From a virus: a stretch of 34,157 nucleotides of DNA. The stretch covers positions 1-34,157 of the IMG/VR virus record IMGVR_UViG_3300035633_000127; one strand, written 5' to 3'. Each line of letters starts with the position of its first letter. Position 1 is the first letter of the stretch. The notes under the pieces are model-generated. The model was not told the origin of the DNA. It did not search any database and was given only the letters and a program-made list of their open reading frames with translations. The translations under genes were made by a program, and so were the position numbers. This document shows positions 4,552 through 34,157 of this stretch, one piece after another.

Positions 4552-4881
4552 ATGAAAACGCGCCGCAAAAATAAGCAACCGAAACCCAAAAAAACCCAAA
4601 AAACCCAATCGGTTTTATTGGGTTTGCAAGGATCCGTAAATTTTGACTCGGAGATCCGGGCGGGAGATGAGGTTATTATCGAGGATACGACGTCTTTTTG
4701 TCTCGATGAGGGCCGGGAGTATTATACTCTCGGATCTTCCGGGACGGTCGTTAATTTCCTTAAAGGAGGGGCCGAGGTCGTCGTCCGAGTCGCGGCCTTT
4801 GACAGAGTCGACCCGATGAGGATCGTCGCAATCCCCGAACGTTTTTACATCTGCAAACGAGTATTTAAAAAACCTTATTAA
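4552..4881 (+). CDS. Small beta-rich protein with shared linker motif, unknown function
   Basis: 109 residues from ATG 4552, one base after the endolysin stop. A longer frame from 4522 would overlap the endolysin and was not chosen. The basic N-terminus contains PKPKKTQKTQSVL, a relative of the PKETQKTDSVI string in two other early proteins. Residues about 33-85 (AGDEVIIEDTT ... YYTLGSSGTVVNFLKGG) look like an SH3- or KOW-like beta barrel. No enzyme motif. Confidence 0.65.
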   Translation: MKTRRKNKQPKPKKTQKTQSVLLGLQGSVNFDSEIRAGDEVIIEDTTSFCLDEGREYYTLGSSGTVVNFLKGGAEVVVRVAAFDRVDPMRIVAIPERFYICKRVFKKPY

Positions 4882-4893
4882 AATTTATCAATT

Positions 4894-5268
4894 ATGAAAA
4901 ATCGCCGCGTTACGATTACAATCCTCAACGGAGTCTCGGATTTCGACGCCTTGCAAAGGATCGCCGAGGTCGTTAAACGAGGAAAGATCTCTAAGACAAA
5001 CGAGAGAGATCATTATACATTTAAAACAGTCTGGGAGGACGGCGTTTTCGTCGAAACCCGGGCGAAATACAAATCCGAATCCGATCGATTTATCGTCGGG
5101 AGAGATCTCTCAAGACTTGAGATCCTTTGTCCCGATTGCGATAAACCTCTCGTCCTCGAGGACGGGGATCGGAATTTATTCTCTTGTAGTTGCGGAAATT
5201 ACAAGATCCAAACGAATATATTAATTAAAATCGCCTCCTCCAATGAAAAAACGAAAGGTAAAAATTAA
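4894..5268 (+). CDS. Zinc-ribbon protein, unknown function
   Basis: 124 residues. The N-terminal ~75 residues are mixed alpha/beta (RVTITILNGVSDFDALQRIA). The C-terminus carries ILCPDCDKPLVL and LFSCSCGNYKI, a C-x2-C ... C-x-C zinc ribbon with about 17 residues between pairs. The 3' end overlaps the next gene by 26 bases in another frame. Role unknown. Confidence 0.65.
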   Translation: MKNRRVTITILNGVSDFDALQRIAEVVKRGKISKTNERDHYTFKTVWEDGVFVETRAKYKSESDRFIVGRDLSRLEILCPDCDKPLVLEDGDRNLFSCSCGNYKIQTNILIKIASSNEKTKGKN

Positions 5269-9245: not shown

Positions 9246-9638
9246 ATGAAAAAATTTATTTCTCTGCTCTCGATCTTGTTTCTTTTTGCGATCGCCCCGG
9301 AGGCCGTTAACGCGGATCCCGAGGTTTTGATCGATGAGGTCTCGATCGAGAAAACCGATCTTTTTTCCTCGGACGTTGTAACAAACGTTATCGTCCAAGC
9401 GTCCCCGCTCTTGATAGTTGAGACCGCGATAAACGAGGAAAGATCTCAAAAAGTCGTATCCGTGTATGCGCAAAACAAACAATTTTCCGGAATATCCGGG
9501 GATCTCTGGTCTGAATCCGAACAAATTCTCGATATTAAGACTTTAAACGAGATTTGTTATTATAAGACCGACGGAGTTAAACCGAAAAGGACGTTATTAA
9601 AGACGAAACGATTTAAACCTCCGAGATTCGGCGTTTAA
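9246..9638 (+). CDS. Secreted protein of unknown function (moron-like)
   Basis: 130 residues. A typical Sec signal peptide (MKKFISLLSILFLFAIAPEA) has a probable cleavage after VNA (residue 23). The mature part is about 107 residues, basic at the end (KPKRTLLKTKRFKPPRFGV), with no recognised domain. A strong GAGGAGG Shine-Dalgarno sits 9 bases before the ATG, unusual here. The upstream gap holds TAACTTTA, and two hairpins, one a good terminator, follow. A self-contained transcription unit between terminase and head genes, exporting a protein, fits a moron: a gene active in the lysogen or early in infection, for example in exclusion or envelope modification. This role is inference. Confidence 0.65.
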   Translation: MKKFISLLSILFLFAIAPEAVNADPEVLIDEVSIEKTDLFSSDVVTNVIVQASPLLIVETAINEERSQKVVSVYAQNKQFSGISGDLWSESEQILDIKTLNEICYYKTDGVKPKRTLLKTKRFKPPRFGV

Positions 9639-9642
9639 TTCG

Positions 9643-9658
9643 GGCCGATAACGGCCCA
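9643..9658 (+). terminator. GC-rich hairpin after the secreted-protein gene
   Basis: GGGCCG-ATAA-CGGCCC is a perfect 6-bp stem with a 4-base loop, 4 bases after the TAA. No T-run follows, so alone it is a weak terminator or a 3'-end stabilising hairpin. Confidence 0.45.
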
Positions 9659-9698
9659 ACGGTTAATATAAACTCTCATATTTCAAAAAAACGAAAAG

Positions 9699-9726
9699 AT
9701 CCTCCCGGAACCCGGGGGGATTTTTT
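9699..9726 (+). terminator. Rho-independent terminator
   Basis: ATCCTCCCGG-AAC-CCGGGGGGAT: a 10-bp stem with one G-T wobble and a 3-base loop, then TTTTTT. It closes the secreted-protein unit. Confidence 0.85.
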
Positions 9727-9772
9727 ATTATTAACAATTCTTTAAAAGGTTTTTATTAACTTGTTTTTATCA

Positions 9773-9780
9773 TAACTTTG
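9773..9780 (+). promoter_or_regulatory. Bacteroidota-type promoter -7 element TAACTTTG
   Basis: Exact TAnnTTTG match 46 bases after the previous terminator. The -33 region is only T-rich (GGTTTTTATT). Start predicted near 9786-9788. Another hairpin terminator begins only about 55 bases downstream of that, so the expected product is a short transcript. Confidence 0.5.
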
Positions 9781-9790
9781 TATCCGTAAA

Positions 9791-9808
9791 GGCGCGCCGA
9801 TCGACGCG
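9791..9808 (+). repeat. Long-distance inverted repeat, left copy (18 bp)
   Basis: GGCGCGCCGATCGACGCG is the exact reverse complement of 16735-16752. The match stops at both flanks. Both copies are intergenic. Confidence 0.95.
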
Positions 9809-9841
9809 TCGAATAATTGATAAATTCTTTTTTCATACTCT

Positions 9842-9874
9842 CGGGAGCCCTTTTCGGTTCCCGTTTGTTTTTTT
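9842..9874 (+). terminator. Rho-independent terminator before the head operon
   Basis: CGGGAGCC-CTTTTC-GGTTCCCG: an 8-bp stem with one G-T wobble, followed by TTTGTTTTTTT. It lies upstream of the next promoter element and so ends the candidate small RNA. Confidence 0.75.
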
Positions 9875-9891
9875 CCTATTTTTTTTTATCG

Positions 9892-9899
9892 TAAATTTG
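9892..9899 (+). promoter_or_regulatory. Promoter element for the head operon, TAAATTTG
   Basis: Exact TAnnTTTG match 16 bases before the ATG at 9916. A TTTG at 9864-9867 is the best -33 candidate, though its 24-base spacing is long. It would drive the series 9916-16724. Confidence 0.55.
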
Positions 9900-9915
9900 A
9901 ACAAAATCTCGAGAT

Positions 9916-10638
9916 ATGGATTACTTTTTGCGAAAAGAGGATTTTTTCTCGGTATATCCCGAGGAGAGATTCGATAAACTGATCGAGGACGATCCCTCGA
10001 TTTGGAGAAACGCGCTCCCCGGATCGATTAAACAAATCTCCGGTTATCTTTCCGCCCGATACGACGTCGCGGCGATTTTTGCTCCCCTCAAAGAATTTAA
10101 CTCCGATAATGAATATACAGAAACCGACCGGGTTTTTTGGGTTCCTTTGGATTACTCGGAAACCGAGACGTATTCCGTCGGAGATTACGTTAATCAAGAG
10201 GGAATTATTTACAAGTGTAAAACCGACGTATTAATCCCGGAGGCGTTCGACCCGGCCAAATGGGACGAGGTCGCGGAATATAACTCCCTTTGGGAATGTA
10301 TTGCAGACGCGCCCGCCGGAACTTATCCGGACGACGAGAATTATTTCAAAGAGGGAGACGCGCGGGATCCTTGGATCGTACAAATAACGGTCGACGTCCT
10401 TTTATATCATTTGCTCGGCCGATTGAATAATATCGACGTTTCCGCGAACCGTAAAGAGCGTTACGACGGGAACGACCCGAACCAAAAGGGCGGCGCGATT
10501 GGATGGTTAAAAGAGGTCGCGAACGGATCCGTTAATCCGGATCTCCCTCTCCGAGAGGTCGAGGAGGGCGATCAAACAAATCAAAAAATTATTTGGGGCG
10601 ACGCCTCCGAAACGAAAAATAAAAATAGTGTTTTTTAG
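9916..10638 (+). CDS. Mu gp36-like (DUF1320) neck protein with inserted carbohydrate-binding-like module
   Basis: 240 residues. The DUF1320/gp36 pattern is visible as KQISGYLSARYDV (residues 39-51) and DPWIVQITVDVLLYHLLGRLNN ... RKERYD (151-184). In Mu-like phages this protein sits in the head-tail connector region. Between these parts, residues about 62-150 hold an extra segment, ETYSVGDYVNQEGIIYKCK ... FDPAKWDEV ... NSLWECIADAP. It resembles chitin-binding-type-3/CBM5-12 modules (Y-x-x-G-D-x-V ... G-x-x-Y-x-C ... P-x-x-W) in roughly one and a half copies. This may make a surface-exposed, glycan-binding decoration. First gene of the head operon. Confidence 0.65.
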   Translation: MDYFLRKEDFFSVYPEERFDKLIEDDPSIWRNALPGSIKQISGYLSARYDVAAIFAPLKEFNSDNEYTETDRVFWVPLDYSETETYSVGDYVNQEGIIYKCKTDVLIPEAFDPAKWDEVAEYNSLWECIADAPAGTYPDDENYFKEGDARDPWIVQITVDVLLYHLLGRLNNIDVSANRKERYDGNDPNQKGGAIGWLKEVANGSVNPDLPLREVEEGDQTNQKIIWGDASETKNKNSVF

Positions 10639-15700: not shown

Positions 15701-16110
15701 TAAGACGAAAAGGATCCTTTCGAATAAAGGAAAAAAAGGTAAAATTTACGAGATTTAAAAAGGAGGTTCCGATTATTCTCGCGAACGAGTCTCGTAATCA
15801 TTTCGTCGAGGGTTTCAGGAAAGGAGGAGGACAAACCGACCGATCTCGGGGCGGATGGACTCCCAGAAAATCGAGGAGACAACCCTCTCGAGCGATCCTT
15901 GTCCTCTCCGGGGCTCTCCGGAGGGATATACAAGTTTTATTCTCTCAATGGAGTAAAATAATCGTCGGATCGATTAACCTCCCGTATGCGAGGAGGCATA
16001 ACGAGGGACTCGCGGGAATGCCTCAAAGAGAATTTATCGGAGAGTCGAGATCTCTCAAGAGAAAACATTTAAAAATTATTTTACGTAACCTTGTAATCCG
16101 TTTAAAATGA
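15697..16110 (+). CDS. Phage virion morphogenesis protein (Mu gpG / Phage_tail_S-like)
   Basis: 137 residues, very basic. The core ILVLSGALRRDIQVLF ... YARRHNEGLAGMPQREFIGES (residues 67-112) is the family signature L-x-x-S-G-x-L ... Y-A-x-x-x-x-x-G-x-x-x-x-x-P-x-R-x-F-L/I-G. In P2 and Mu this protein acts at tail completion or head-tail joining. ATGA overlap with the preceding gene. Confidence 0.85.
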   Translation: MIRRKGSFRIKEKKVKFTRFKKEVPIILANESRNHFVEGFRKGGGQTDRSRGGWTPRKSRRQPSRAILVLSGALRRDIQVLFSQWSKIIVGSINLPYARRHNEGLAGMPQREFIGESRSLKRKHLKIILRNLVIRLK

Positions 16111-16724
16111 GATCGATTAAATCGCATTTATATTTATTTGTTAAAACGCTCCTCCTCGGGGGGACGTATACCGATATCGAGGAAAACGATCACGATTTCG
16201 AGGGGCTCCTCGGATCCGACGGCAAACCCGAAATTAAACATTTCGAACCGTATAACTCCGAGTTAACAAATTTTATTAACAAGGAAAATTATCCGGTTCC
16301 GGCCGTATTTTTTGAGTATCCGACCACGGATCCCGAGGTCGAATCGACTCAATTAACGACCTCCGAGACCAATTATCGCCCCAATTTTAAGGATCGAGCA
16401 ACGTTCGCCCTCCATTTAATAACGACCAGAGGAGTAACGTCCGGGAACGTCGAGGACGATTATCTCGATCTCTTGGATCTCGCCTCTCGAGTCGTTAATA
16501 AATTGCGTTTCCGGTCAATCGCCGGGATCGATAATATTATGAAAACAAACGAGACGGAGGACAACGATAACGAGGTTTTAAAAGATTGGATAATCTCATT
16601 TGAGGCCGTCGTCCTCGAATGCGGGGAAACGGATCTCGTCGACGCCAACGATCCCGAGGTTAATCCTTTGGCTCCCGTAGAACAAGAGATCGAAGTAACC
16701 ATATTGCAACCGCCGATAACATAA
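16107..16724 (+). CDS. Tail terminator/completion-like protein (Mu gp37-type by position)
   Basis: 205 residues, overlapping the morphogenesis gene by 4 bases. VPAVFFEYPTTDPEVESTQLT ... ATFALHLITTRG ... LLDLASRVVNKLRF resembles tail terminator proteins: beta strands, a central helix carrying the DLLDLAxxV segment, and an acidic tail. Last gene of the head/neck operon. Called by fold pattern and position. Confidence 0.55.
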   Translation: MRSIKSHLYLFVKTLLLGGTYTDIEENDHDFEGLLGSDGKPEIKHFEPYNSELTNFINKENYPVPAVFFEYPTTDPEVESTQLTTSETNYRPNFKDRATFALHLITTRGVTSGNVEDDYLDLLDLASRVVNKLRFRSIAGIDNIMKTNETEDNDNEVLKDWIISFEAVVLECGETDLVDANDPEVNPLAPVEQEIEVTILQPPIT

Positions 16725-16734
16725 AAACGGGATC

Positions 16735-16752
16735 CGCGTCGATCGGCGCGCC
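16735..16752 (+). repeat. Long-distance inverted repeat, right copy (18 bp)
   Basis: CGCGTCGATCGGCGCGCC is the exact reverse complement of 9791-9808. It lies 10 bases after the stop of the tail-terminator-like gene and 63 bases before the prohead protease ATG. Confidence 0.95.
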
Positions 16753-16764
16753 CTGTTAAATCTA

Positions 16765-16797
16765 AAATTTGACAAAATAAATTAAAAATTGTATTAT
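16765..16797 (+). promoter_or_regulatory. Candidate promoter for the protease-capsid-tail operon
   Basis: A TTTG followed by about 20 A/T-rich bases and TATTATTG (one mismatch to TAnnTTTG), roughly 20 bases before the ATG at 16816. It lies just downstream of the 18-bp inverted repeat copy. Confidence 0.4.
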
Positions 16798-16815
16798 TGA
16801 CCAAAACCCGGAAAA

Positions 16816-18012
16816 ATGGACTTAAAATTCACAAAAATTGTAAACGAGGACGACGGAAAAAAGGTCGTCTCGATGTATATCTTTGGGATAATCGGTTACG
16901 ATGTTATCGGAGAGGAGTTCGCCCGAGAGATTAAATATCTTTACGAGCAATTAAAAATCGATAACCTCGATATTTATATTAACTCTCCCGGAGGATCCGT
17001 TATCTCCGGTTACTCGATAATCTCCTCGATAAGGCTCGCCGAAAAATCGGGAGTCGAAATAACGATGTATAACGTCGGAGTCGCGTACTCCATGGGCGGA
17101 ATAATTCTCGTCTCGGGAAAAAATCGGATCGCTTGGGATTACTCAACGTTAATGATACACGATCCAAGTTTCGATAATAAAGACGACGAGGATCTCTCCG
17201 ATTCAGATCGCAAGTTTTTGCAAGAGATCGGAAACTCTCTCGCCGATATAATCTCCGGAAATACGGGGATCGAAATCGACGAGGTTAAAAATATGATGCG
17301 AGTCGAGACCGTGTTTTCGGCCAAAGAGGCCAAGTCTCGGAACTTTGTCGACTCGATCGAGAAAACAGGCCGTAAAGTCGACCTCGGGAATTGTAAAACG
17401 AATCTCGATAAAATGGTCGCTTTTTCAAATATTTTTTACAATCAAAATAATTTTATTAACGAAAAAATTTTAAAGATGGAAAGAATCGCGAAATTTTTAA
17501 ATCTCTCGCCGGCGGCGTCCGAGGATATGATCCTCGACGAGTTAAAACGCAAGTTTGACGAACTCGAAAAGGCTAAAACGTTGAGAGACGAAAACAAAAC
17601 CTTGACCGAAAAGGTCAAAACTTTGGAGGACAAAATCGTCAAAAACGAGGAGTCCGCCAAAAAAGAAAAGGCGATCGCTCTCGTTAACAAAGCGAAAGAG
17701 GACGGATTAATCCCCGATGAGGAGTCCGTCGTTAACGATTGGGTCGAAAACGCCGTCGAGAACTACGAAAAGACCGAAAGGATCTTGCAGAAAATGAAAC
17801 CCGTTACAACGTCGATTAACAACAAATTTGAAAAATCCGACAAGAAAATGAAAGGAAAAAAAGACGAACTCGTCAATAAATACGAGGAGTTAATCGATAA
17901 TCCCGAGGAGATGGATCGTTTTGCGACCCAGAATCCCGAGGAGTTCGAAAAAATGGAGAACGCTTGGAACGCCGCAAATGAAAAACGCTTTTCGGTCGAG
18001 TTCGAAAAGTAA
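16816..18012 (+). CDS. ClpP-type prohead protease fused to scaffold region
   Basis: 398 residues. Residues 15-185 are a ClpP-like serine protease: INSPGGSVISGYSI (oxyanion strip, about 56-68), AYSMGG with Ser92, LMIHDP with His115, and VFSAKEAKSRNFVDS near the end. The third triad residue (Asp in the family motif R-D-x-F/W-x-S/T-A) aligns with Glu164 here. Residues 210-398 are highly charged and coiled-coil (DELEKAKTLRDENKTLTEKV), ending in a basic-acidic tail, as expected for an internal scaffold released by the protease. Directly precedes the major capsid gene. Confidence 0.85.
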   Translation: MDLKFTKIVNEDDGKKVVSMYIFGIIGYDVIGEEFAREIKYLYEQLKIDNLDIYINSPGGSVISGYSIISSIRLAEKSGVEITMYNVGVAYSMGGIILVSGKNRIAWDYSTLMIHDPSFDNKDDEDLSDSDRKFLQEIGNSLADIISGNTGIEIDEVKNMMRVETVFSAKEAKSRNFVDSIEKTGRKVDLGNCKTNLDKMVAFSNIFYNQNNFINEKILKMERIAKFLNLSPAASEDMILDELKRKFDELEKAKTLRDENKTLTEKVKTLEDKIVKNEESAKKEKAIALVNKAKEDGLIPDEESVVNDWVENAVENYEKTERILQKMKPVTTSINNKFEKSDKKMKGKKDELVNKYEELIDNPEEMDRFATQNPEEFEKMENAWNAANEKRFSVEFEK

Positions 18013-19124: not shown

Positions 19125-19157
19125 AATTTATTTATTCATTCTTAAAAATTTTTCAAG

Positions 19158-21189: not shown

Positions 21190-21768
21190 ATGGACGAAAA
21201 ACAATTAAATGACAAGAGAGAACAAAAAACGAGTTTATTCGAGACGTTTTTCGAGGAGTTTGTCTCCAAGGACGACAATCTCGCAAAATTCATACTCGAC
21301 GATCGGGCCGAGGATCTTTTAAATAACGCGACTTTTAAAGACGCAAAAAAGGATCCTTTGTTCGATCAATTAATCGAGGATCCGAATTATAAAAAGATCT
21401 CTCATAATATCACGGACGGAGACGGAATCGAGGAGGATCTCGATCTCTCGGATCTTATCCGGGATTTTTACGGAGAGATGAGGTTCGGAGAAAGTAAGAA
21501 AAAATACGATTCGTTTGTCTTTACATGTACCGACGGCGAGCAATGTTTAATCCAACAACCGGACCCGGACGAGATCGACGATTTAATGCAATTCGTTGAA
21601 ATGGTTACGCAAAAAGTCCGCGCGGTTCCGTTTGGGGATTATCTCGTTACTCAGTGTTGGTTATCCGGGGACGATGAGATCCGCAAGGATAAAAAATTAT
21701 ATCATCAAATCGGCATGTCGGGAATGAGGATCGTTAACGTTGCATTTGCACACGTAAAAAAAAATTAA
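21190..21768 (+). CDS. Tail assembly chaperone, short form
   Basis: 192 residues, mostly acidic and helical, between tube and tape measure where the gpG/gpE-type tail chaperone lies. FVFTCTDGEQCLIQQPDPDEIDDLMQFVEMVTQ is the compact core. The reading frame ends at TAA 21766-21768, two codons after an A-AAA-AAA heptamer. The -1 frame stays open for another ~69 codons, giving a longer product. The chaperone coats the tape measure during tail assembly. Confidence 0.75.
   Translation: MDEKQLNDKREQKTSLFETFFEEFVSKDDNLAKFILDDRAEDLLNNATFKDAKKDPLFDQLIEDPNYKKISHNITDGDGIEEDLDLSDLIRDFYGEMRFGESKKKYDSFVFTCTDGEQCLIQQPDPDEIDDLMQFVEMVTQKVRAVPFGDYLVTQCWLSGDDEIRKDKKLYHQIGMSGMRIVNVAFAHVKKN
21756..21762 (+). promoter_or_regulatory. 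Programmed -1 ribosomal frameshift site A AAA AAA
   Basis: Within a run of nine A (21756-21764), the zero frame reads GTA AAA AAA AAT TAA, so the heptamer A-AAA-AAA is in the canonical register. A -1 slip bypasses the TAA and enters a frame open to TAA 21969-21971. Confidence 0.8.
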
Positions 21769-29821: not shown

Positions 29822-30031
29822 TTATTGGTTCGAATCTGTCTCGAGGCTCAAGGCCTCAAGATAAGTTTTTTGCATCTCGATGAGGTCAAGATCTAAATAA
29901 TACGCTCCGAGTATTTCGGGCGGGAGATCCTCGGACTCTTTTTTCGCGAGGACTTTATCGATAACCTCTTTTTTGAATTCGAGGTCTTTGTATTGCTCAA
30001 TAATGTAAGCGGCGGAGACTTTTATTTTCAT
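29822..30031 (-). CDS. Small helical protein, unknown function
   Basis: 69 residues from the ATG at 30031, chosen over an upstream ATG at 30079. The chosen start makes a 4-base ATGA overlap with the previous stop and has a full AAGGAGG Shine-Dalgarno 7 bases upstream. The product begins MKIKVSAAYIIEQYKDLEFK and ends ALSLETDSNQ; acidic and helical. No family recognised. Confidence 0.65.
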   Translation of the reverse strand: MKIKVSAAYIIEQYKDLEFKKEVIDKVLAKKESEDLPPEILGAYYLDLDLIEMQKTYLEALSLETDSNQ

Positions 30032-30246
30032 TTTTCGCCCTCCTTTCCTTTTAACCAGATATCGCGCCTCGATCGGCACTCTTTCAAGGTCGACGCAACG
30101 GTCGAGAATAACGTCCCGTCCGTATGTCTGTAATCGTATTGATATCTCGTTTGTTTACGATGCGTAAACTTTTCGTAATTCTCGGATCCGAGTTCGGTCG
30201 TTGTCGAGATACCGTTTTCCGTTAATTTTTTGCTCTTTTTTGCCAT
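30028..30246 (-). CDS. DUF3873-like small protein
   Basis: 72 residues. NGISTTTELGSENYEKFTHRKQTRYQYDYRHTDGTLFSTVASTLKECRSRRDIWL closely follows the pattern I recall for DUF3873 (NGVST ... G-x-E-x-Y-E ... Y-Q-Y-D-Y-R-x-x-x-G-x-L-F-S-T-V-A-x-T-L-x-x-C-R-x-x-R-D-x-W-L). That family is found in Bacteroidota mobile elements and has no known function. Only 4 bases separate it from the gene upstream. Confidence 0.75.
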   Translation of the reverse strand: MAKKSKKLTENGISTTTELGSENYEKFTHRKQTRYQYDYRHTDGTLFSTVASTLKECRSRRDIWLKGKEGEK

Positions 30247-30250
30247 CTGT

Positions 30251-30520
30251 TTAATGTTTGAATTTGTTAATAATTTTGATAATGTCGAGTTTCGTCGTTT
30301 TCGAATTAATACTCGAGAGCTCGTCTCTCAAGTTTAGAGCGTTCGCGATATCCCTCGCGACGTTTTCCGCGGAAGTGTATTTTGATTTATATTTATCCGT
30401 GCGAATAACTCCTCCGTGAACCGTAACGATTTCCGCATCCTTGTTAAACTCGTCGTTTAATACGACCTTACAATAAGTTTTCGGACTTGGACTCGATTTC
30501 AAGATACTAAATTTTTTCAT
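30251..30520 (-). CDS. First gene of the minus-strand operon, unknown function
   Basis: 89 residues. KTYCKVVLNDEFNKDAEIVTVHGGVIR at residues 14-40 suggests a small beta unit; the C-terminus is helical (ENVARDIANALNLRDELSSI, LDIIKIINKFKH). Start at 30520 with a short A/T-rich leader behind a good minus-strand promoter. The divergent position opposite an XRE-containing operon makes a regulatory or lysogeny-type role plausible, but no DNA-binding motif is evident. Confidence 0.6.
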   Translation of the reverse strand: MKKFSILKSSPSPKTYCKVVLNDEFNKDAEIVTVHGGVIRTDKYKSKYTSAENVARDIANALNLRDELSSINSKTTKLDIIKIINKFKH

Positions 30521-30544
30521 AATTGATAAATTTTAAATTCGAAA

Positions 30545-30577
30545 CAAAGTTAAACGTTTTTTGTTAAAAAACAACAA
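30545..30577 (-). promoter_or_regulatory. Minus-strand promoter of the small-gene operon
   Basis: Read on the minus strand: TTGTTG at 30577-30572, about 19 bases, then TAACTTTG at 30552-30545. This is one of the best Bacteroidota-type promoter matches in the window. Confidence 0.65.
30556..30572. promoter_or_regulatory. Inverted repeat inside the minus promoter, operator candidate
   Basis: GTTTTTT-GTT-AAAAAAC is a perfect 7-bp dyad with a 3-base centre, lying in the spacer of the minus-strand promoter. Position and symmetry suit a small repressor such as the XRE protein at 31212. Confidence 0.4.
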
Positions 30578-30602
30578 TAAGGCGAAAAAAAATAACGATA
30601 TA

Positions 30603-30635
30603 TTGATAAAATAATTTTTTTGTTTAGTAAATTTA
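30603..30635 (+). promoter_or_regulatory. Plus-strand early promoter
   Basis: TTG at 30603-30605, 22 bases, then TAAATTTA at 30628-30635 (one mismatch to TAnnTTTG). It would drive the series from 30669. Confidence 0.45.
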
Positions 30636-30668
30636 GCTTAATTTTACATCGAATTTAAAAACAAGAGA

Positions 30669-30992
30669 ATGAAAAAAGAATTACAGACCGTCAAGGGGAA
30701 ACCCTTACGCAAGGCCCGGAGATTTCACGCCACGGGCCAAATTTTGACGATCTCGGACGATTTCCGATCGTTTGGGATTGAATGCTCCCGGGAGGATATT
30801 AAAGGCCTCTTAACGCCTAAAACCGACAAAATCAAACTATCGATTAATGTCAGTTATGAAAATTCGATCTTGTTACGTCATTGGATCAAGGTCGGAGATA
30901 CCGTTTATCTCGATCTCGTTTATCTTGTATTTTATGAGGGGAACGGAGACGAGACAAGTTCAAAGATCTATTTTAAAAACTTCTTAAAATGA
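30669..30992 (+). CDS. First gene of the right early operon, unknown function
   Basis: 107 residues. Probable OB-like or other beta barrel: RRFHATGQILTISDDFRSFGI, KIKLSINVSYENSI, GDTVYLDLVYLVFYEG. No catalytic motif. The leader AAAAACAAGAGAATGAAAA matches that of the gene at 6601. Overlaps the next gene by 4 bases (ATGA). Confidence 0.6.
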   Translation: MKKELQTVKGKPLRKARRFHATGQILTISDDFRSFGIECSREDIKGLLTPKTDKIKLSINVSYENSILLRHWIKVGDTVYLDLVYLVFYEGNGDETSSKIYFKNFLK

Positions 30993-31228
30993 AAAAAAAA
31001 GAGTTAAAGGACTTAACTCCGAAAGATCTCTCATTCGAGGAACTCGTTTTGTTAAAAATTAAGATCCGGAGGAACCGCCCCAAGTTAAAGAAAAAACTAA
31101 AAATGGAGGCGGATCTCCTTATCGAAATGATTAACGACGAACTCGAGGAGAGGGGATTCGGGAAAGAGGCCGAATTAAAACAGTCTATTACAAACCCAAA
31201 ACCGCGACAAGATGAGAGAAAAAATTAA
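30989..31228 (+). CDS. Small basic helical protein, unknown function
   Basis: 79 residues. Lys/Glu-rich: LTPKDLSFEELVLLKIKIRR, LKKKLKMEADLLIEMINDEL. The 3' end overlaps the XRE gene by 17 bases. No family recognised. Confidence 0.55.
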   Translation: MKKKELKDLTPKDLSFEELVLLKIKIRRNRPKLKKKLKMEADLLIEMINDELEERGFGKEAELKQSITNPKPRQDERKN

Positions 31229-31394
31229 AATCGCAATGATTAAACAAGAGATCTCGTTCCTTGAGCTCGCCGAGGCGACCGGGATACGTTATCAAACGTT
31301 AACCGCATTTATTAACGGAGGGAAAAATACGTTTTTTTCAAACTTTGAAAAAATATGTAATATCTTAGATCTCGAATTATGCGAAAGGAATTAA
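31212..31394 (+). CDS. XRE/Cro-type helix-turn-helix regulator
   Basis: 60 residues, a bare HTH domain: KIAMIKQEISFLELAEATGIRYQTLTAFING, with the helix-turn-helix at about 16-36 and a closing helix FEKICNILDLEL. Likely a dimeric repressor acting on the divergent promoters 0.6 kb upstream; the dyads at 30556-30572 and the 30531/30649 pair are candidate targets. No integrase is seen, so whether it controls lysogeny or only early gene timing is open. Confidence 0.8.
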   Translation: MREKIKIAMIKQEISFLELAEATGIRYQTLTAFINGGKNTFFSNFEKICNILDLELCERN

Positions 31395-32626: not shown

Positions 32627-33343
32627 ATGGGATTAAACAAACAATCGGGAAACATGTATACTTTTGTCTCCCATACTTGGAACCCTCTCGGGGGACGTTG
32701 TCCGCATAATTGCGGATATTGTTCGACCGGTTCGTTACGGAACCGGTTTCCCAATTTAAAAGATAAATATTCGGGCCCGCCTCGGATAATTGAGTCCGAG
32801 TTAATCTCCCTCGGATCCGGAAAGTTTATCTTTGTTTGCGCTCAAAATGATCTATTCGCGGAAAACATCCCGGCGGAAATTATCGAGAGGATCCTCTCTC
32901 ATTGCCGAGAATTCCCCGAAAACCGTTATTTATTGCAGACCAAAAACCCGGAAAGGATCCTCGATTATCTCGAGGAGATCCCGGACGGATCCGTTATCGC
33001 GACGACGATCGAATCCTCGCGACAATATCTCGAAATTATGGACGATTGCCCGCCTCCGATTAATCGCGCGGTCGCTTGTCATAAGATCGCGAATTATTTC
33101 TCGGTTATGGTTACGGTCGAACCCGTTCTCGATTTTAATCTCGAGTTATTCTCGGAGATTTTGAGACTCTCTCGAGCGTATCAAATTAACATCGGGGCGG
33201 ATTCGGGAAATAATAACCTCCCGGAACCGAACAAAGAGAAACTCGCGAGGTTAATCGAGAGGATCCCCGAGTTTGCAAGCGTAAATTTAAAATCGAATTT
33301 ACGTCGAATTACTTATCCGAACTATAATAAACGTTATGAATAA
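32627..33343 (+). CDS. DUF5131-like (phage Gp37/Gp68) radical SAM-type protein
   Basis: 238 residues. HTWNPLGGRCPHNCGYCSTG contains C-x3-C-x2-C (Cys25, Cys29, Cys32), the iron-sulfur motif of radical SAM enzymes, preceded by the H-T-W-N-P element typical of the DUF5131/Gp37Gp68 family. Later elements fit the half-barrel: GKFIFVCAQNDLFAENIPAE, RYLLQTKNPERIL, GSVIATTIESS, FSVMVTVEPVLDFN. The short length equals the compact members. Substrate unknown; RNA or nucleotide modification is a guess from its place among early genes. Confidence 0.8.
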   Translation: MGLNKQSGNMYTFVSHTWNPLGGRCPHNCGYCSTGSLRNRFPNLKDKYSGPPRIIESELISLGSGKFIFVCAQNDLFAENIPAEIIERILSHCREFPENRYLLQTKNPERILDYLEEIPDGSVIATTIESSRQYLEIMDDCPPPINRAVACHKIANYFSVMVTVEPVLDFNLELFSEILRLSRAYQINIGADSGNNNLPEPNKEKLARLIERIPEFASVNLKSNLRRITYPNYNKRYE

Positions 33344-33789: not shown

Positions 33790-34157
33790 ATGAAAAACAA
33801 AATTTTAGGAGTAAAGGGATTTAACAAAGACTTTACTTGCAGAAAAAAACAATATCAAGAAAACTCAATCTTTACAGAAGATTTAAAACCGGTTCTTTGT
33901 AAAACCGGGATACATTTCTGTAAAATTCCGCTTGATGTATTTAAGTATTATCCCCCTGTTGTCGGGGCTATTTATGCAGAATGTGAATCTTTAGGGGATA
34001 CAATAATAGGCGAAGATAAGGCTTCAACAAATAAGATAAAAGTGAAATCAAAAATCTCTATTAGTAAAATATTTAAACTTCATTTTAATTCGATCTTTGA
34101 TTTCACTTTTATCTTATTTGTTGAAGCCTTATCTTCGCCTATTATTGTATCCCCTAA
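33790..34157 (+). CDS. N-terminal part of a DUF7666-like protein (runs off window end)
   Basis: Open from ATG 33790 to the window end. LGVKGFNKDFTCRKKQYQEN ... KTGIHFCKIPLDVFKYYPPV ... IYAECESLGDTIIGEDKAST ... ISKIFKLHFNSIFD matches the N-terminal domain I associate with DUF7666: K-G-F-x-K-D-x-x-C-R-x-x-Q-x, G-x-H-F-C-x-x-P-x-D-V-F-x-Y-Y, A-x-x-x-x-x-G. In that family the domain is followed by ATSG-type repeats, which is what the window starts with. The last 62 bases are a fold-back, so residues after about 102 (position 34095) are probably not real. Its GATC-poor, A-rich codons differ from the rest of the genome, suggesting a recently acquired cassette. Confidence 0.7.
   Translation, partial: MKNKILGVKGFNKDFTCRKKQYQENSIFTEDLKPVLCKTGIHFCKIPLDVFKYYPPVVGAIYAECESLGDTIIGEDKASTNKIKVKSKISISKIFKLHFNSIFDFTFILFVEALSSPIIVSP
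33991..34157. repeat. Terminal fold-back inverted repeat, 62-base arms
   Basis: 33991-34052 is the perfect reverse complement of 34096-34157, separated by 43 bases. The outer arm ends exactly at the window end. Being inside a coding sequence and at a contig edge, it is most simply a template-switch or assembly chimera. Confidence 0.95.

Follow-up and report, generated by a model that had tools for sequence, protein, structure and literature searches.

A candidate small RNA gene in the gap preceding the head genes of a Bacteroidota phage

The gap ahead of the head genes

The virus record considered here, all 34,157 bases of which were analysed and are referred to as ‘the window’, is from a phage of Bacteroidota bacteria. 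Its gene order runs from the terminase large subunit through a small ORF, a Mu-gp36-like adaptor, a Mu-like portal and a Clp-type head protease to the capsid, and then to the tail sheath and tape measure. The same order is found in the Winoviridae-like phages FPSV-S1 and lotta8-2, protein identity to these being 23–29%. Intergenic DNA makes up 5.5% of the window and its longest stretch, 277 bases (9639–9915), lies between the DNA-packaging and the head genes. Elsewhere, positions 1–270 are a 27-bp tandem repeat (beginning CACACGCGAACACCTCCGGA) that encodes a HANTSG-type repeat protein cut at the record start, and the right end carries a long inverted repeat, or hairpin (about 34000–34060 versus 34098–34157), that is probably an assembly artefact. 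A Radical-SAM / DUF5131-like phage gene occupies 32627–33343, and a DUF3873 protein is encoded in the leftward operon (30028–30246, minus strand). Palindromic words are strongly over-represented in the window as a whole, with GGATCC present 82 times versus 6 expected from base composition, and CTCGAG and CGATCG 41 and 44 times versus 6 expected for each.

Reading along the plus strand of the gap, the elements are a terminator (T1), a promoter (P1), an 18-mer, an A/T-rich linker (9809–9841), a second terminator (T2) and a second promoter (P2), after which the gp36 gene starts at 9916. T1 (9700–9726), 3′ of the 130-aa ORF 9246–9638, is the hairpin TCCTCCCGGAACCCGGGGGGA with TTTTTT, for which the predicted fold is −22.5 kcal/mol; its minus strand likewise reads as a hairpin with a T-rich tail. 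P1, TAACTTTG (9773–9780), matches the Bacteroidota −7 element and is without the TTTG −33 motif; both the −7 consensus and the absence of the −33 motif in F. johnsoniae have been described (PMC7366714). P2, TAAATTTG (9892–9899), is by motif match and by comparison with relatives the predicted promoter of the head operon, with the Mu-gp36-like gene at 9916. On the plus strand of all the intergenic DNA in the window TAnnTTTG occurs three times; two of these sites are P1 and P2, the sole ones in the gap, and the two are 74% alike across 31 bases. Taken by itself, a promoter match of 8 bases would turn up between T1 and T2 with a chance of about 9%.

A transcript from P1 would start at about 9786–9788, and the stem of T2 (9842–9875; hairpin CGGGAGCCCTTTTCGGTTCCCG at 9842–9863, tail TTTGTTTTTTT) opens 54–56 bases further on. 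The first-pass annotation, which had described a promoter-like element followed within ~55 bases by a hairpin and T-run and enclosing an ~85-base segment that encodes no protein, is borne out on both counts, as the predicted RNA (9786–9874, plus strand) is about 85–90 nt in length and 9786–9872 contains no ATG. On sequence alone, then, this is an intergenic unit with its own promoter and intrinsic terminator, and the predicted fold, a 5′ hairpin, a mostly open linker and the terminator, has the anatomy of an sRNA. A search of Rfam gave no match over the gathering threshold, with the best sub-threshold scores far under the cut-off, and a tRNA and tmRNA search found none. That a discrete RNA is made from this interval is what we infer, and we hold it to be probable.

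How does the same junction look in related phages? The terminase/gp36 junctions of the Winoviridae-like FPSV-S1, lotta8-2 and relatives L110–L112 have, as here, a terminator that is followed, ahead of the gp36-like gene, by a TAnnTTTG promoter. In lotta8-2, L110, L111 and L112 the terminase gene gives way to a small ORF, then to a single terminator with one TATATTTG promoter in its T tail, and then to gp36, the gap ahead of gp36 being 77–106 nt as against the 277 nt here, and the relative L039 has at this junction a single terminator and a single TAAATTTG promoter. Because the relatives carry only the counterpart of T2 and P2, the T1–P1–RNA segment is an extra unit, one that is lacking from the junctions of FPSV-S1, lotta8-2 and L110–L112. 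FPSV-S1 is without the small ORF; between its terminase and gp36 (L025:15900–16040) come TATATTTG, some 50 nt that hold no ORF, a terminator and then another promoter, and a further short non-coding transcript may be made there. A nucleotide search with the region against phages and plasmids gave no match, and single-sequence searches with gp36, portal, terminase and sheath against IMG/VR and GTDB genomes brought up no relatives. The best relatives from profile searches, at most 46% identical in terminase and 31% in portal, are so distant that covariation analysis is out of reach.

Complementary sequences elsewhere in the genome

The 5′ hairpin of the predicted RNA is the 18-mer GGCGCGCCGATCGACGCG (9791–9808), which is the near-palindrome CGCGcCGATCGaCGCG. 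The exact 18-base complement that had been claimed to exist elsewhere in the genome does so, at 16735–16752, where this inverted copy, the sole other one in the window, has a predicted hairpin of −16.2 kcal/mol 10 nt past the stop codon of ORF 16107–16724. It is upstream of the promoter of the Clp-like head protease gene at 16816, TTGACA-17-TATTAT (16769–16799; 11 of 12 positions, and containing TATTATTG), a near-consensus promoter and the best in the stretch scanned. Upstream of the Clp-protease gene FPSV-S1 and lotta8-2 have in common an operator-like direct repeat, ACTATAAAGACAAA[AT]TAAAGAC (L025 about 21665–21695 and L024 about 19125–19145, respectively). Among 60 genomes generated with an order-4 Markov model, inverted pairs of at least 18 bases occurred at 0.12 per genome and none was equally GC-rich, and the complement at 16735–16752 is not chance-like. 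The 18-mer is also present in 20 IMG/VR contigs. As it is there confined to long open frames in DNA of 61–70% GC, these occurrences are chance ones, and the notion of a shared mobile or spreading motif was rejected.

As complementary RNA hairpins the two copies would form a duplex of −44.7 kcal/mol. However, the 18-mer being near-palindromic, two readings of it remain, complementary RNA hairpins or a DNA operator, and so its earlier use as evidence for an RNA holds in so far as the complement is exact but is weakened in that a DNA-binding site could be involved instead. Two other features to which attention had been drawn, GGCGCGCC (9791–9798) and the 12-base palindrome TCGACGCGTCGA (9801–9812), are present, but neither is informative. 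With 28 palindromes of 12 bases in the window, versus about 8 expected at random, TCGACGCGTCGA carries no weight and was rejected as a signal.

What of the linker between the two hairpins? Within 9813–9837 it is complementary, exactly and over 14 nt each time, to sequence around the start codons of four phage genes. Segment A (9813–9826), the complement of AATTTATCAATTAT, corresponds to −12 to +2 of genes 4894 (plus strand; predicted site 4882–4895) and 30520 (minus strand; 30519–30532). Segment B (9823–9837) is the complement of the start codon and the codons just after it in gene 1403 (site 1402–1415, matched by 9824–9837) and gene 30669 (site 30669–30682, matched by 9823–9836), the last being the strongest predicted start-site duplex. 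Gene 1403–2119, an O/DnaD-like replication gene, resembles DnaD-like helicase loaders and replisome organizers, and gene 4894–5268 has a weak zinc-ribbon match. The other two, 30520–30251 and 30669–30992, are the first leftward and first rightward genes diverging from 30521–30668, which from its layout is a putative immunity region; the gene at 31212–31394 codes for an HTH protein of Cro/CI type, 60 aa long.

When all 49-nt windows on both strands were scanned for exact start-region complements, only 9791–9839 reached four start regions, at 13 nt as well as at 14 nt or more. None of 20,000 dinucleotide shuffles of the 34-nt linker (9809–9842) reached four, and among 100,000 random 34-mers with intergenic statistics 0.34% matched one start at 14 nt, 0.005% (5 × 10⁻⁵) two or more and none four, exact-match figures that are to be read with the anti-start hypothesis having been framed after inspection of the data. 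The four targets amount to two independent motifs, since one 24-nt leader is common to genes 4894 and 30520, and ATGAAAAAAGAAT to genes 1403 and 30669; even counted as two, the adjacent matches are still improbable. The shared leader with its start, TTAAAATTTATCAATTATGAAAAA, is identical at 4878–4901 and 30513–30536, before the plus-strand gene 4894 and the minus-strand gene 30520, and is the longest inverted repeat in the window. Both of the two longest, at 24 and 18 nt, involve sequences complementary to the predicted RNA. The 24-mer of the linker is absent from IMG/VR. At the corresponding junctions in FPSV-S1 and lotta8 there are no anti-start matches of 13 nt or more, nor in FPSV-S1 any of 12 nt or more, and no homologous anti-start RNA was found in either.

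Beyond-chance complementarity to the start regions of mRNAs encoded elsewhere is thus present by exact match and is weaker by energy. By energy, 11% of shuffles did as well as the whole RNA and 1–3% as well as the linker by itself, and among GC-matched genome windows the share was 4–27%, depending on the measure: the duplex energies are only moderately unusual, and those of the whole RNA are not unusual. The co-fold gain with gene 30669, −20.1 kcal/mol, is the best among all start regions, and the gains with 4894, 30520 and 1403 fall inside the range of other genes. Ranking of targets by duplex energy, being only weakly discriminating, was set aside. A/U-rich pairing is weak, and that is the energetic limit of reading the linker as antisense.

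Candidate regulator and its competitors

The explanation we favour, at somewhat under even odds (a probability of roughly 45%), is that the interval specifies an 85–90-nt trans-acting sRNA which would block the start codons of early, immunity and replication genes. The interval would be a self-contained sRNA gene, transcribed from P1 at about 9786 and stopped by T2 at about 9872, and its predicted product a non-coding RNA in which a GC hairpin at the 5′ end is followed by an open linker rich in A/U and by the terminator hairpin with its U tail. The linker would pair in vivo around the start codons of four or more phage mRNAs (including 30669, 30520 on the minus strand, 1403 and 4894), and with the start codon covered translation initiation would be blocked. 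Early and immunity functions would in this way be lowered after late transcription turns on, the timing being a guess from adjacency to the head operon. In addition, an 18-bp duplex may form between the 5′ hairpin and the hairpin at the 3′ end of the mRNA of the first head operon, by which the sRNA would be sequestered or the head-operon hairpin altered. The full scheme, in which a multi-target sRNA silences the phage’s own immunity, early and replication starts as early expression gives way to late and the exactly complementary 3′ hairpin of the head operon in turn titrates the sRNA, is speculative and we regard it as unlikely. The original proposal of a phage small RNA is partly supported: the extra T1–P1–RNA unit, the sRNA-like fold and the unique anti-start linker, none of which it drew on, strengthen it, and what falls away is the part that leaned on GGCGCGCC and the palindrome.

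A DNA operator is an unlikely alternative. A dimeric protein would bind the near-palindrome CGCGYCGATCGRCGCG and regulate P1, with the short transcript a by-product. The two near-palindrome copies are intergenic, in opposite orientation and each adjoins a promoter, one being just downstream of P1 and the other some 61 bp upstream of where the protease gene starts, and the Cro/CI-type HTH protein of 60 aa encoded at 31212–31394 would be a candidate to bind them. However, the region where such a protein would be expected to bind, 30521–30668, has no copy within 3 mismatches, so that a set of CI/Cro-type operators is not what is found and this reading is lowered; further, the second copy folds as a 3′ hairpin, and the anti-start linker is left unexplained. 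Ordinary tandem terminator and promoter clutter, in which T2 would serve as a reserve terminator, P1 would match by chance and the linker matches would be coincidences of A/T-rich DNA, is improbable. The roughly 9% chance of a −7 match in the T1–T2 interval and the only moderately unusual duplex energies speak for it, but the exact-match statistics, the P1–P2 similarity and the 18-mer all count against it.

In phage lambda the pR′ promoter, the short untranslated 6S RNA and the tR′ terminator lie just before the late genes, and promoter, short RNA and terminator have the same layout immediately before the head genes here. Could the interval be such a late leader, its transcription stopping at T2 until antitermination, possibly at the 18-mer, allows readthrough into the head operon? 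Here, in contrast to lambda, a separate promoter for the late operon, P2, lies past T2 and would suffice for it as in the relatives, and in the genes scanned no Q-like protein or other antiterminator could be recognised; we consider the leader improbable. Slightly less probable still is a minus-strand ORF of 26 codons (ATG at 9838, MKKEFINYSTRRSARLYGYKVMIKTS), or what is left of a former gene start, in which case the antisense matches would be its start-like sequence. On that strand ATGAAAAAAGAATT is of the kind usual for gene starts in this genome, and T1 reads as a terminator there as well. But no promoter is seen there, the ORF overlaps P1, tblastn against phages gave no match at E 10, and AATTTATCAATTAT follows the ATG in this ORF, whereas in 4894 and 30520 it precedes it. 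Real start regions have a 14-mer in common with at most one other and never match four, which argues against the linker being the antisense of a real gene start.

Phage small RNAs and Bacteroidota translation

Phage trans-acting sRNAs are already known, and the trans-acting sRNA favoured here would be a new candidate, from a Bacteroidota phage. The P22 sar RNA, of 68/69 nt, pairs with a phage mRNA and hinders translation initiation of a regulatory gene (PMC12197685), a role like that predicted here, though sar controls one mRNA, ant, whereas the present RNA matches four start sites in other parts of the genome. VpdS of phage VP882 and PreS of lambda are Hfq-dependent trans-acting sRNAs of gammaproteobacterial phages (PMC12197685); PreS, at about 88 nt, is similar in size to the predicted RNA but acts on a host gene, whereas the targets predicted here are phage genes. 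Also similar in size is RteR, a 90-nt trans-encoded Bacteroides sRNA (PMC7366714) with a role in element transfer, though it affects a conjugation operon, tra, and the predicted targets here are phage start codons. A 2025 review of phage-derived sRNAs (PMC12197685) contains no Bacteroid- or Flavobacter- names, and literature searches, with incomplete journal coverage, found no sRNA of a Bacteroidota phage.

Four predicted self-targets together with a complementary head-operon hairpin would, if confirmed, be unusual. Bacteroidota mRNAs are without Shine-Dalgarno sites and have A-rich starts (PMC7366714), and so an A/U-rich sRNA that targets starts would show how riboregulation can work there. 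If the reading is true, it would provide a testable RNA-level switch for the temperate or early/late decision in Bacteroidota phages.
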